Of a DNA stretch of 33,418 bases, positions 412 through 33,418 are shown one piece after another. This DNA is from Polyangium sp. 15x6. GTDB lineage: Bacteria > Myxococcota_A > Polyangia > Polyangiales > Polyangiaceae. The notes beneath the pieces were generated by a model. The model saw nothing but the letters and a program-made list of their open reading frames with translations, ran no database searches and was not told the DNA's origin. The stretch covers positions 1 through 33,418 of the forward strand of contig NZ_JASBQE010000121.1 in assembly GCF_029960785.1 (NCBI RefSeq). The letters run 5' to 3'. The position numbers and the translations under genes were made by a program. Position 1 is the first letter of the stretch. Each line of letters starts with the position of its first letter.

Positions 412-765
412 GTGCGCCCCGTGATCCAGAGCATCATCGACGAGCTCCTCGCTCGTCATCACCGATCGGGACGAGTCGACCTCAACGACATCGCGGAGGT
501 CATCGGCCCGCGTGGTGTCTCCTACGAGGAGGTCGACCACATCGTCGAGCGCCTGGAGGCCCTCGGCCTCGTGGTCGGCGAGCCGATCGACGCGGACGAG
601 GTGACCGTGATGAAGCGCGTGCTCGGCGCCGCGCGATCTCTCCGCACGACGCTCGGACGAAACCCGACCATCGCGGAGATCGCCCTGTCTTCGGGGCACC
701 CGGCTCACGTCGTGCGGCGCGCGCTCGAGCGTGGGGTCTCGCCGCGCGTGGTCCGGAGCTACTAG
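412..765 (+). CDS. Mini-protein with sigma-70 region 1.1-like and region 3-like segments
   Basis: This is a 117-residue protein. Residues about 5-55 resemble sigma-70 region 1.1, the DNA-mimicking autoinhibitory domain: a helix (IIDELLARHH), then GRVDLNDIAEVI, then an EEVDHIVERLEALGLVV helix and an acidic tail (DADE), in the same order as E. coli RpoD. Residues about 68-105 (LGAARSLRTTLGRNPTIAEIA) resemble sigma region 3, with the GR-P-T-EIA signature. Region 2 (-10 recognition, core binding) and region 4 (-35 recognition) are absent, so it cannot be a working sigma factor by itself. It may modulate RNA polymerase or another sigma factor. The start is GTG at 412 or GTG at 421; neither has a clear Shine-Dalgarno. 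It lies 15 bp before the LptA-like gene and is probably co-transcribed with it. Confidence 0.7.
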   Translation: MRPVIQSIIDELLARHHRSGRVDLNDIAEVIGPRGVSYEEVDHIVERLEALGLVVGEPIDADEVTVMKRVLGAARSLRTTLGRNPTIAEIALSSGHPAHVVRRALERGVSPRVVRSY

Positions 766-780
766 TGATAGAGTGAGGCC

Positions 781-1269
781 GTGCCGCTCGGCCCGCGCCT
801 CTCCTTGGCTCTCGCGCTGCTCGCGACGACGATCGCGCCTCGATCGCTCGCCGAGCCTCCGAAAGCCGCGCCGCCGCCCAAGGAGGCGGTGGAGCTCTCC
901 GCCGATCAGCTCGACATCGACATCGCGGCGAAGCGCGCCGTGCTCGAGGGCCACGTGCGCCTGACGAAGGGCGGCCTCGTGATGCGCGCGCCGCGCGTCG
1001 AGGTGCGGTACGACGAGGTGCCGAACGTGACCTGGGCGAAAGGCACGGGCGGGGTCGTCGCGGAGGTGAAGGGCGTGCGCGCGGAGGCGCCCGAGGTGGA
1101 GATCGACCTCGGCAAGCAGATGCTGTCGCTGCGCGGAGGCGTGCGCCTTCAGCGAGGGGCGGGGTGGATCAGCGCGGAGAAGGCGACGATCGATCTCGTC
1201 AGCCTGAAGGTCTCGCTCTCCGAGGTGAAAGGCGCGATGCCGGTGCCGGAGGGCGCGGAGAAGAAGTAG
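781..1269 (+). CDS. LptA/OstA-like periplasmic protein
   Basis: This 162-residue protein has an N-terminal signal peptide (to about residue 24, ending near SLAEPP) and a single OstA-like beta-jellyroll domain. The characteristic run is LSADQLDIDIAAKRAVLEGH followed by VRLTKG, VMRAPRVEVRYDE and later MLSLRGGVRLQRG. LptA bridges LPS from LptBFGC in the inner membrane to LptDE in the outer membrane. The length matches a short LptA. The start is GTG at 781, 15 bp after the upstream stop. It is the left counterpart of lptB, which sits about 30.6 kb away in the same orientation. It ends five bases from a convergent gene. It could also be an LptC-like or non-LPS OstA paralogue, so no firm symbol is given. 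Confidence 0.75.
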   Translation: MPLGPRLSLALALLATTIAPRSLAEPPKAAPPPKEAVELSADQLDIDIAAKRAVLEGHVRLTKGGLVMRAPRVEVRYDEVPNVTWAKGTGGVVAEVKGVRAEAPEVEIDLGKQMLSLRGGVRLQRGAGWISAEKATIDLVSLKVSLSEVKGAMPVPEGAEKK

Positions 1270-2422: not shown

Positions 2423-3979
2423 CTATTGCGCGATGAAGATCTGCGGCGAGCCCGTGAGGGAGAGCGGAACGCTCCCGCCCGCCGGCGTGAGATCGGTGGC
2501 CGCGCCGGTCTTGCCATGGTCCCACGCATACGCCTTGATCGGCCCGCCCGCGGCGAGCGAATACATCGCGCTCGCGTCCTCGCTGGTTCCGGCCGTCTTC
2601 GCCCACAGGACATAGGCCGCTTTCCCATTCGCGAGCCGGAACGCCGCGCCGCCGACCGCCTCCGGCAGCGCGAGCGCCGCCGTCGCGCTCGCGTCGAACG
2701 CGGCGCCGGAGAGGAGCTGCCCGTGCGTTCGATACGCGACGCCCGTATCCGTGAGCTTTGCCTCGGTCGGCGCGCCGAGCTTGATGACATCGTAATACAG
2801 GCCCATGTAGTCGAAGGAGCTGTTGCTCGCGCCGAGCTCCGCGTTGTCGGTCAGGAGATACCAATCGACGCCGTCGATCCCCTCGGCCTGCGCGGTGGTC
2901 ATCACCTTGAGGATGTAGTTTCTCGCGTATTCCGCCCCGCCCGGGCCTGCGCCGATGAGCTCGTGCGGCGCCCCGCTCTCGGTCACCACCCACGACTTCC
3001 CATTGACGCCCGCGGCGTCGAGGACCTTCGCGAGAGCGTCCCTGGAAGCGACGAAGCCGTTCACGCCGACGTCCGAGCTGCCCGGCGAGAAGACCGGATA
3101 ATAATGGAAGCTCAGGACGTCGAAATACTTCGCGCCCTTCTCGGGGTAATCGGCGCTCACGGCTCCGCCGTCGGGGTTGTCCGTGTAACGGAGCACGGCC
3201 GAGAGGAAATTCGGGTATCCGATCCCGCCGAGCGCGATCTTCGCGTCCGGATCGGCCTTCAGCGCGGCCTCGCGCGTCACGCGGAGCATGCGGATGTAAT
3301 CGAAGATGGAGCCATGAAAGCGCGGGAGCTGCTCCTTCGTGGGCGGGTCCTTGTCCCAGTTCACCGTCACCTGCCAATCGGCGACCCAATCAGGCTCGTT
3401 CCACACCTCCCAGACCTTCACCCAATCCTTGTAGGTGCTCACCGTCTTGTGCACGTACGCTCCCCAGTAGTTGTCGGGGTTGATCGTGCCGTCCTCGAGG
3501 AACACGGGTTGATACAGGTTCTTCGGCATGTACTCGGCAATCTGCCAGTCCGGCGTGCCCGCGGGCGCCGTCGAATGTTCGGCCGTGGGGGTGGTCAAGA
3601 AGGCGACGTGGTTCGACATGCCGAGCGCCGCGTATTGCTTGATGTCCTCGACCTCGATCTCGTAGCCCCACGTCGTCAAGTGCTGCTCGGGCAGCGAGAT
3701 TCGCTGGCTGTCGGCGCCGGCCTCGCGCGCGAGCTTCGCGAGCTCCGGGTCGCTCCAGGTGGGGTGGCGGTGGCCGGCGTTGATTCCATGCCGGAATGGC
3801 CCGCCGAGCCCGTTGCCGTTGCCGCCGGCGCCGCTGCCCCCTTGGTCGCTACCGCCGCTGCCGGCGCTGCCGCCTCCGCCGGTCTCCCCCGCGGCGGAGC
3901 CGCTTTCACCGCCGCCCCCCGAGCACGCGGCGGCGAGAACGAGAAGGGATGCGGAGAGAATACGGATCATCGAACGCAT
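2423..3979 (-). CDS. Lipoprotein glycoside hydrolase, clan GH-A type
   Basis: This 518-residue lipoprotein has the lipobox LAAAC (Cys19) and a Gly/Ser linker at about residues 20-60, followed by a TIM-barrel glycosidase. The acid/base is probably Glu195 in WEVWNEPDW and the nucleophile Glu334 in VVTESGAPHE; NEP on strand 4 and E on strand 7 are the clan GH-A signature, closest in feel to families 5 and 39. A C-terminal beta-sandwich-like region (about 400-518) ends in GSPQIFIAQ. It would hydrolyse a glycan at the outer membrane or cell surface; the substrate cannot be read from sequence. The ATG at 3979 has GGAGGT eight bases upstream. It follows the LysR gene by 46 bp on the same strand, so the two may be co-transcribed. 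Confidence 0.85.
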   Translation of the reverse strand: MRSMIRILSASLLVLAAACSGGGGESGSAAGETGGGGSAGSGGSDQGGSGAGGNGNGLGGPFRHGINAGHRHPTWSDPELAKLAREAGADSQRISLPEQHLTTWGYEIEVEDIKQYAALGMSNHVAFLTTPTAEHSTAPAGTPDWQIAEYMPKNLYQPVFLEDGTINPDNYWGAYVHKTVSTYKDWVKVWEVWNEPDWVADWQVTVNWDKDPPTKEQLPRFHGSIFDYIRMLRVTREAALKADPDAKIALGGIGYPNFLSAVLRYTDNPDGGAVSADYPEKGAKYFDVLSFHYYPVFSPGSSDVGVNGFVASRDALAKVLDAAGVNGKSWVVTESGAPHELIGAGPGGAEYARNYILKVMTTAQAEGIDGVDWYLLTDNAELGASNSSFDYMGLYYDVIKLGAPTEAKLTDTGVAYRTHGQLLSGAAFDASATAALALPEAVGGAAFRLANGKAAYVLWAKTAGTSEDASAMYSLAAGGPIKAYAWDHGKTGAATDLTPAGGSVPLSLTGSPQIFIAQ

Positions 3980-31844: not shown

Positions 31845-32552
31845 ATGTCGCTCCTCGCCTCCTCCCTCACCGTGCGTCTCTCGGGTCGCACGCTCCTTCA
31901 CCACGCCTCGCTCGAGGCGCGGCCGGGTGAGGTCCTCGCCGTCTTCGGCCCGAGCGGCGCCGGCAAGACCACGCTGTTCCGTGTGCTCGTCGGCGAGCTC
32001 GTTCCGCTGGAAGGGAAGGTCGTCCTCGCAGGTGAAGACGTGACGCGCCTGCCGCTGTACGAGCGCGCGCGCCGCGGCCTCGGCTACGTCCCGCAGACGC
32101 CGAGCGTGCTGCCCGATCTCTCGGTGCGCGACAACCTCGCCGTCTTCGAACGCCTCACCCGACGCGCTCGCTCGCTCGGCGCGCCCGATGCGCTGACGAT
32201 CGCCCGTGATCTCGGCCTCGACGGCCTCCTCGACATGCAGGCTGCGCGCCTCTCCGGCGGCGAGCGAAGGCGCCTCGAGATCACGCGCGCGCTCACGGCC
32301 GCGCCTCGGGTCCTCGTTTGTGATGAGCCGTTCGCGGCCGTCGATCCGCTCGGCGCGACGCGCGTCGCTGAGCGACTCCGTGCCCTGGCCGACGCCGGGG
32401 CCGCGGTCCTCGTCTCCGATCATCATGTCGATGCGGCTCTGCGCCTCTGCGATCGCGCCGTCCTCCTCCTCGATGGAGAGATCGCGCTCGAGGCCTCGCC
32501 CGAGGGTTTTCGAGCCCACCCGCTCGTGCACTCTCGTTACTCCGCGACGTGA
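31845..32552 (+). CDS. lptB: LPS-export ABC transporter ATPase LptB
   Basis: This is a 235-residue ABC ATPase: Walker A GPSGAGKTT (35-43), Q-loop YVPQTPSVLP, LSVRDNLAVF, signature LSGGERRRLEITRAL (136-150), Walker B VLVCDEPFAAVDPLG (D160, E161) and H-loop LVSDHHV (His193). The LSGGERRR signature and the DEPFA-VDP block are those of LptB. LptB powers extraction of LPS by LptFGC. The gene is followed by hpf and ptsN, the conserved LptB neighbourhood, which supports the call; rpoN, normally between lptB and hpf, is absent. The start is ATG 31845 with no strong Shine-Dalgarno. Confidence 0.9.
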   Translation: MSLLASSLTVRLSGRTLLHHASLEARPGEVLAVFGPSGAGKTTLFRVLVGELVPLEGKVVLAGEDVTRLPLYERARRGLGYVPQTPSVLPDLSVRDNLAVFERLTRRARSLGAPDALTIARDLGLDGLLDMQAARLSGGERRRLEITRALTAAPRVLVCDEPFAAVDPLGATRVAERLRALADAGAAVLVSDHHVDAALRLCDRAVLLLDGEIALEASPEGFRAHPLVHSRYSAT

Positions 32553-32827: not shown

Positions 32828-33187
32828 ATGAACATCGCAATCACGTTCCGACACATGGTGGGCACGGACGCGGTGAAGCAGTACGCGCATGACAAGGTCG
32901 CCAAGCTGCAAAGGTTCCTTCGTCAAGCCATGACTGCGCAGGTGACGTTGTCCGTCGAGGGCCTCGATCACATCGCGGACGTGAGAATCTCCTCGGGCAG
33001 CCAGCAGTTCCACGCCACGGTCCGCAGCCAGGACATGTACGCCTCGATCGACAAAGTCATCGACAAGCTGGACCGACAGATCGAAGCGGACAAGACGGCA
33101 AGCATGGCGAAGAAGCGCGGCGGGACGAGCGCGGCCGAGTTCGCGGCCGAGGCCCACGAGGCGGCCGAGGGGCGCGCCCGCGACTGA
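32828..33187 (+). CDS. hpf: Ribosome hibernation-promoting factor, short form
   Basis: This 119-residue HPF/YfiA-type protein opens MNIAITFRHMVGTDAVKQYA and continues YAHDKVAKLQRFLRQAMTAQ, DVRISSGSQQFHATVRSQD and MYASIDKVIDKLDRQIE; these are the beta-alpha-beta core and the conserved helix-2 block of the family. It should bind the 30S decoding centre and silence ribosomes in starvation. It lacks the C-terminal dimerisation domain of long HPF. The Ala/Glu-rich tail (about 100-119) is low complexity. The ATG at 32828 follows a purine-rich GGAAGGAAA. It lies 275 bp after lptB and 155 bp before ptsN. Confidence 0.95.
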   Translation: MNIAITFRHMVGTDAVKQYAHDKVAKLQRFLRQAMTAQVTLSVEGLDHIADVRISSGSQQFHATVRSQDMYASIDKVIDKLDRQIEADKTASMAKKRGGTSAAEFAAEAHEAAEGRARD

Positions 33188-33239
33188 AGGCGAATTCCAC
33201 GCTGTACGCCCTCGCCAGGCGAGCCTTTCCGTAGTAGGG

Positions 33240-33260
33240 CTCGGCCGTGCTTCCGCCGAG
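33240..33260 (+). terminator. Small hairpin between hpf and ptsN
   Basis: CTCGGC (33240-33245) and GCCGAG (33255-33260) pair around nine bases. No U-tract follows; a G-run does. It is a weak candidate for a terminator or processing site between hpf and ptsN. Confidence 0.2.
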
Positions 33261-33342
33261 GCACGGGGGGGACAGGCAACGATCGACTCGACGGCGCAAC
33301 AGGCGGCGCACGCCCCGCTCTCCCAACCCCCCCGGCACGATC

Positions 33343-33418
33343 ATGGGTGTTCTCGAGATCCTGAGCGCGGACCACGTCTCGGTGGCCAACGAGGTCGAGG
33401 GCGTCGTCCGCTCCAAGC
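33343..33418 (+). CDS. ptsN: PTS IIA-like nitrogen-regulatory protein PtsN (first 25 codons, partial)
   Basis: The frame starts at ATG 33343 and runs off the right edge. The 25 residues MGVLEILSADHVSVANEVEG, then VVRSK, fit the PtsN N-terminus (a short helix, then L-x-D-x-V, then S-K preceding EALE-x-L). Position directly after hpf is the conserved one. PtsN is the terminal phosphate acceptor of the nitrogen PTS. Only the first strand and helix are visible, so the call leans on synteny. Confidence 0.65.
   Translation, partial: MGVLEILSADHVSVANEVEGVVRSK

Follow-up and report, generated by a model that had tools for sequence, protein, structure and literature searches.

A stand-alone protein of Polyangium predicted to join sigma-70 region 1.1-like and region 3-like domains

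Introduction

Region 1.1 is a part of primary sigma factors. In the free holoenzyme it occupies the downstream-DNA (primary) channel of RNA polymerase, and in free sigma it masks DNA binding. The main hold of sigma on the polymerase is provided by regions 2 and 4. Sigma 3 is described in an excerpt of PMC4598750 as a three-helix bundle that contacts the DNA just upstream of the -10 element, and alternative sigma-70 factors are described, in a passage of PMC11119718, as being without region 1.1. In PMC4598750, 109 sigma factors are reported for Sorangium cellulosum.

Here we describe a 117-amino-acid protein of Polyangium sp. 15x6 that resembles parts of several of these systems. The closest is the group 1 sigma factor RpoD/SigA, which likewise carries a region 1.1 and, C-terminal to it, a region 3. 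RpoD/SigA also has regions 2 and 4 (the RpoD of the same genome is an open frame of 651 aa), whereas neither is detectable in the 117-aa protein, and RpoD keeps the residues presumed to contact the extended -10 element, which the small protein has mostly lost. The delta subunit (RpoE) of Bacillus RNA polymerase is likewise a small separate protein. Delta has a long acidic C-terminal tail, whereas the C-terminal half of the protein described here is a basic, region 3-like domain (net charge +2 to +8 in 44/44 members). The NMR structure of sigma-A region 1.1 is said, in an excerpt of PMC10141391, to resemble a domain of delta. HARE-HTH was not among the Pfam matches listed for the open reading frame and its family members, the lists for the members comprising 25 families only.

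Two further comparisons rest on the same excerpt (PMC10141391). In the split sigma factor SigO-RsoA, sigma domains are divided over two proteins, which supply sigma 2, 3, and 4, whereas the 117-aa protein carries regions 1.1 and 3; its neighbours in the window, of which the three downstream ones were scanned with Pfam, did not include a sigma partner. ECF (group IV) sigma factors have a likewise reduced domain set and are listed there with sigma 2 and sigma 4, so that the 117-aa protein has the two domains that they lack. The literature searched, mostly outside subscription journals, held no description of a comparable protein.

Results and Discussion

A conserved open reading frame

The window (the whole stretch of DNA analysed, 33,418 nucleotides) is an entire contig of a 13.4-Mb genome. 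The open reading frame at 412-765 was chosen as a gene by our own codon-position scoring. It and its two domains are as follows.

412 to 765, plus strand: stand-alone protein with sigma 1.1-like and sigma 3-like domains, 117 aa, GTG start (open frame, codon-position scoring, dN/dS)
430 to 600, plus strand: region 1.1-like acidic domain, residues 7-63 (Pfam, charge, hhalign, Foldseek, VIA-align)
586 to 747, plus strand: region 3-like basic three-helix domain, residues 59-112 (Pfam, PDB profile search, hhalign, VIA-align)

The frame is under purifying selection, with dN/dS of 0.12-0.33 in all 15 pairs formed by the six same-genus copies. Family members are 110-130 aa long (44 aligned), and internal stops are absent from all 61 class-level matches.

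Sequence evidence for the two domains

The stronger of the two signals lies in the C-terminal half. Pfam Sigma70_r3 matched residues 68-113 (E = 7.7e-7; 29.6 bits, above the cut-off of 25.3), and the same family matched 30/30 members, the window's included, at E <= 0.1 (best, 5.9e-10). Pfam HNH_repeat matched fewer members and more weakly (12/30; best, 3.3e-6). The GRxPT..EIA core was retained in most of the 44 members (G in 36, R in 39, P in 39, T in 32, E in 38, I in 36, and A in 39). For profile-to-profile comparison, we used the alignment of the 44 members and an alignment of RpoD from 13 genomes of the same bacterial family, these being 13 of the 28 RpoD frames extracted; several of the RpoD frames are cut at a locus end, and the region boundaries supplied to hhalign were set by us. 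Under these settings the C-terminal half matched RpoD region 3 (probability, 95.8; P = 7.5e-9), the other regions giving probabilities of 2.2 at most. When the two whole alignments were compared, the region 3 match alone was reported (probability, 91.6), and its aligned part stops at the RpoD residues KIAKE, which presumably lie at about the start of region 3.2 (the sigma finger).

For the N-terminal half, Pfam Sigma70_r1_1 matched residues 7-63 with an E value of 0.0043 and 17.4 bits, under the cut-off of 22.5. Most individual scores in the family likewise fall under this curated cut-off, which is exceeded by the gene of a relative (G007; 23.5 bits). At E <= 0.1, Sigma70_r1_1 matched 20/30 full-length members and, when N-terminal halves were searched alone, 24/44 (best, 4.7e-5), the window's protein being included in both counts. 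The next Pfam families reached at most 3/44 N-terminal halves: MarR_2 (3/44), the archaeal MCM winged helix (3/44), and DUF3349 (2/44). In the whole 13.4-Mb genome, RpoD and the protein of ORF 412-765 are the only r1_1 matches at E <= 1. By hhalign, the N-terminal half matched RpoD region 1.1 (probability, 89.5; P = 2e-6), with probabilities of 0.3 or less against the other regions and 60.8 against nearly the whole of RpoD. When the N-terminal profile was searched against PDB sequences, the top match was the unrelated 'Ap3' (E = 0.0067), and those to RpoD (2k6x; E = 0.38) and SigA (7l7b; E = 5.9) were not significant. Sequence comparison thus gives a weak signal for region 1.1 whenever this region is considered by itself.

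The two signals were also seen together. When the profile of the 44 members was searched against PDB sequences, the four top chains were RpoD/SigA, each with two matched stretches; the three displayed as alignments have a region 1.1 stretch followed by a region 3 stretch. In this search the region 1.1 stretches scored 12.7-15.2 bits (own E values, 0.18-1) and the region 3 stretches 22.5-26.4 bits; non-sigma chains, including a designed protein (E = 4.7e-5) and a TetR regulator (E = 1.1e-4), appeared at lower ranks. The single ORF sequence, searched against PDB chains, found no sigma factor (best E, 0.33), so the family profile is needed to see the likeness. NCBIfam gave weak sigma-factor matches alone for ORF 412-765 (E = 0.02-0.14), and PHROGs gave two weak matches of unknown function (E = 0.043 and 0.12). 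There was no match in PADLOC or in a plasmid search with the single ORF sequence.

Regions 2 and 4 were not found in these comparisons. With either half, the hhalign probability was at most 0.5 against RpoD region 2 and at most 0.7 against RpoD region 4, represented by a piece truncated at locus ends. No region 2 family was among the Pfam matches listed for the ORF or the 30 members; of the region 4 families, r4_2 was matched in 2/30 members and r4 in 1/30 (best E, 0.026). Because regions 2 and 4 are missing, the protein does not belong to the sigma-70 family. The RpoD of the same genome, an open frame of 651 aa, retains region 1.1, and the gene is therefore an addition rather than a piece of a split RpoD.

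The halves are oppositely charged throughout the family: in 44/44 members the net charge of the N-terminal half is -2 to -13 and that of the C-terminal half is +2 to +8. The N-terminal half (mean, -6.8) is less acidic than RpoD region 1.1 (-10 to -14 in 13/13), and the C-terminal half exceeds RpoD region 3 in positive charge (mean of +4.5 versus +1, the latter in 13/13). Position 102 is R in 36/44 members, and position 103 is R in 22/44 and H in 11/44; both sit in the third helix of the C-terminal domain. The residues aligned with an R, an H, and an E that are present in 13/13 RpoD sequences are kept in only 2, 1, and 9 of the 44 members, respectively. We take these to be the extended -10 contacts (E. 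coli R451, H455, and E458), in which case the residues that read this element appear mostly to have been lost.

Predicted structure

AlphaFold2, run on the family alignment, gave a model with a mean pLDDT of 76.0 and a pTM of 0.44. Helices are predicted at residues 3-16, 24-31, and 38-50, with short strands, and then at 61-81, 87-94, and 98-109; residues 110-117 have pLDDT below 50. Given the pTM and this poorly modelled end, the relative placing of the two domains is not predicted. With the whole model as query, the top Foldseek match in the PDB was 5mww, the sigma 1.1 domain of Bacillus subtilis SigA (probability, 1.00; target TM, 0.62; E = 0.11). VIA-align placed residues 59-112 on region 3 of Staphylococcus aureus SigA (8x6f; Z = 8.8, rmsd of 1.1, 53 residues aligned) and residues 1-60 on 5mww (Z = 7.6, rmsd of 2.6, 60 residues aligned).

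The N-terminal domain was also predicted alone (mean pLDDT, 78.1) and searched against 350,542 PDB chains with Foldseek. Ranks 1 to 3 were 5mww (E = 0.019), the SigA model 9a58 (E = 0.038), and RpoD region 1.1, 2k6x (E = 0.064), all of which include region 1.1. For this predicted domain the E values are modest, and it is the rank order that carries weight. VIA-align gave Z scores of 7.6 for 5mww, 7.2 for 9a58, and 7.0 for 3ol3, which are tied under the rule of the tool, and 3.3 for 2k6x; by the tool's own note, a Z below 8 may mean a common arrangement. The matches further included RecX and DUF3349 folds.

Taken together, these analyses indicate that the two domains very probably are sigma-like and that a region 1.1-like domain is fused directly to a region 3-like one. 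The sequence-only reading had proposed just this arrangement, without regions 2 and 4, and the profiles and the predicted structure bear it out, each half matching its own region. Neither a confident match to an unrelated winged-helix family nor a predicted fold unlike that of region 1.1 turned up, the two findings that the reading had named as speaking against it. Its further statement that the protein has no DNA-reading domains is too strong in that region 3 itself contacts DNA, although most of the residues presumed to read the extended -10 element have been lost.

As a side observation, the region 1.1-like domain is similar in fold to 3ol3, a DUF3349 protein of mycobacteria (Z = 7.0, rmsd of 2.1, 56 residues aligned). 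On these models, DUF3349 is a possible unrecognised relative of region 1.1.

Distribution

In a single-sequence search, 56/108 genomes of the bacterial family, the window's own included, had a match at E <= 0.001. With the profile at E <= 1e-10, 61/317 genomes of the class, again including its own, had one match each, so presence within the class is patchy; among 377 genomes sampled across the phylum, 20 matched, 2 of them outside the class. A single-sequence scan of genome contigs, which misses distant relatives, found six loci, in Polyangium and Sorangium only. Since the profile searches of genomes covered the window's own phylum (Myxococcota_A) only, absence of the family elsewhere cannot be claimed. 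An order-level profile search at E <= 1e-3 matched 177/183 genomes; this count was set aside because it includes partial matches, mostly of the region 3 part in long frames.

We also considered, and rejected, the idea that the gene compensates for a degenerate region 1.1 in RpoD. The median RpoD r1_1 scores were 65.0 bits in 50 carriers and 65.6 bits in 45 non-carriers, a comparison from which 11/106 genomes without an r1_1 row (3 of them carriers) were left out and which did not include the carriers G062 and G065. The relationship between score and gene presence had a P value of 0.04 by genome and 0.087 by genus mean, with mixed directions within genera.

Genomic context

Downstream of the gene, the window contains the following features.

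781 to 1269, plus strand: lptA-like gene with an LptA/LptD_N domain (PF03968, E = 3.2e-11; TIGR03002, E = 7.3e-11, below cut-off)
31845 to 32552, plus strand: lptB-like ABC ATPase about 30.6 kb downstream of lptA, its name resting on its position next to hpf
32828 to 33187, plus strand: hpf (S30AE ribosome hibernation factor)
33238 to 33417, plus strand: ptsN-like frame, beginning only, cut by the contig end (own profile, E = 7e-6)

The lptA-like gene lies 15 bp downstream of ORF 412-765 on the same strand. Of the three downstream neighbours searched in Pfam, one is LptA-like and two had no match. About 30 kb of other genes (1275-31800) lie between lptA and the lptB-hpf-ptsN group. In two same-genus genomes (G086 and G088), the gene and hpf are on the same strand and about 25 and 36.5 kb apart.

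The context survey covered 58 loci, from 58 of the 63 carriers (E <= 1e-10). Nine contain lptA, nine contain hpf (at a distance of 32 kb in the case of the window), and seven contain a DUF3516 helicase together with a small gene of unknown function, the loci being 3.5-12 kb long (the window, 33 kb), so that a neighbour absent from a short locus may reflect truncation. Counts for lptB were excluded because its profile also matched other ABC ATPases (L055, L073, L079, L081, and L187). Elsewhere the gene adjoins hpf-ptsN-hprK-rapZ, the DUF3516 helicase, or other genes, and it has no fixed gene neighbour. The sequence-only reading had paired the gene with lptA and drawn from this a link between transcription and envelope biogenesis; the co-occurrence survey shows the pairing to be local, not general. 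A partnership with LptA was accordingly rejected as a general key to function, lptA occurring in so few loci and other neighbours elsewhere.

In G006 and G046 the order is homologue-lptA-lptB-hpf-ptsN-hprK-rapZ, and in Sorangium (L006, L046, L047, and L050) and in G007 (L052) it is homologue-hpf-ptsN-hprK-rapZ. The E. coli counterpart is the operon lptC-lptA-lptB-rpoN-hpf-ptsN-rapZ-npr; a shared rpoN operon is described in the excerpted part of PMC4635465. All 17 carriers examined have rpoN. Three of them (G058, G064, and G082) have it beside hpf and carry the 1.1-3 gene at a different place. The remaining 14 have rpoN more than 1 Mb from hpf or on a different contig; of these, 13 have the gene with lptA or hpf, and one (G051) has it with neither. 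Thus, among these 17 genomes, the former rpoN operon begins with the 1.1-3 gene only if rpoN itself is no longer part of it. This pattern may stem from a single evolutionary event and is no proof of a functional exchange.

In seven loci (L054, L056, L060, L061, L065, L067, and L070), the gene follows a DUF3516 DEAD-box helicase, named from L056, and a small protein. The small proteins of L056 and L067 had no Pfam match, and in L056 the small gene and the 1.1-3 gene overlap by 4 bp. A divergent gene of 600-700 aa adjoins the 1.1-3 gene in seven loci.

Possible function

Lacking region 2, which binds the core, and region 4, which reads the -35 element, the protein is not expected to function as a sigma factor. 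The explanation that we tentatively prefer, which may well prove wrong, is that a sigma 1.1-sigma 3 fragment here forms a diffusible protein that modulates RNA polymerase in trans. The acidic N-terminal domain would enter the downstream-DNA (primary) channel of the polymerase as a DNA mimic, and the basic C-terminal domain would serve as an anchor, docking close to where sigma 3 binds or on adjacent DNA, with no recognition of the extended -10 element. The core enzyme, or holoenzymes whose sigma is without region 1.1 (ECF, for example), would thereby be kept off DNA; alternatively, the effect might be to tune open-complex formation. That the gene contexts vary is what one would predict for a trans-acting factor. 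With regions 2 and 4 missing, binding to RNA polymerase could be weak. A more specific proposal, which we regard as rather improbable, is that the protein supplies in trans the domains that ECF factors are missing (1.1 and 3), serving either as a common gatekeeper for ECF holoenzymes or as a plug by which idle polymerase is kept off DNA, in bacteria rich in sigma factors such as Sorangium cellulosum. The operon-head position in one sub-clade and the adjacency to hpf in some genomes would fit a role in polymerase hibernation.

RNA polymerase need not be the target. The protein could be a small DNA-binding regulator in which the basic domain binds DNA and the acidic domain masks it as long as the protein is free, much as region 1.1 does in free sigma. 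The opposite charges of the halves in 44/44 members, a C-terminal half more basic than RpoD region 3 (+4.5 versus +1), and the arginine at position 102 (36/44) and arginine or histidine at 103 (22 and 11/44) in the third helix all are consistent with this. Loss of most of the presumed extended -10 contacts (kept in 2, 1, and 9 of 44) and a predicted secondary structure with no extra dimerisation element argue in the other direction, and we consider such a regulator possible, if somewhat unlikely. A mimic of region 1.1 could also act on sigma itself, as an anti-sigma factor or sigma chaperone that binds sigma and locks its compact form, and the title of one fold match of the N-terminal domain (2k6x) indeed refers to the region 1.1-induced compacted structure of a group 1 sigma factor. 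This seems improbable, given that sigma-factor genes did not recur beside the gene in the neighbourhoods examined, part of which were scanned with Pfam, and that the strength of RpoD region 1.1 does not clearly track gene presence (65.0 versus 65.6 bits).

Two other explanations concern the origin of the protein. If the N-terminal domain were an ordinary winged helix convergent with region 1.1, only the region 3-like half would be sigma derived. That would suit the mostly sub-cut-off r1_1 scores, the first place of 'Ap3' in the N-terminal PDB search, the Pfam matches to MarR_2 and archaeal MCM (3/44 each) and DUF3349 (2/44), and the tie between the DUF3349 structure 3ol3 and 5mww (Z of 7.0 versus 7.6). 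We judge it quite improbable nonetheless, as region 1.1 leads by members (24/44, the next family reaching 3), is specifically matched by hhalign, and holds Foldseek ranks 1 to 3. That the gene is a decaying remnant of a duplicated rpoD is extremely unlikely. It is short and without regions 2 and 4, G076 has the C-terminal part alone in a 76-aa frame, and G095 has a weak match with two stops; set against these are the dN/dS of 0.12-0.33 in 15/15 pairs, the 61 class matches without an internal stop, and the narrow length range of the 44 members (110-130 aa).

If the protein does modulate RNA polymerase in trans, then a domain of sigma can work on its own as a regulator of the enzyme, in cells whose RpoD retains region 1.1. 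It would offer a compact natural reagent to probe the roles of regions 1.1 and 3 in isolation from promoter recognition, in bacteria with an unusually elaborate regulation of sigma factors.

Other features of the loci

One ORF in L071 looked ECF-like by eye. In the window, a tandem array at 2154-2374, between the genes at 1275-1979 and 2423-3979, has a unit of about 43 bp (also seen as 87 bp) in about five copies with 86% matches. Positions 1-303 contain GC-rich short tandem repeats, and the minus strand there codes for a Gly-rich frame that is cut by the contig start and looked secreted by eye.
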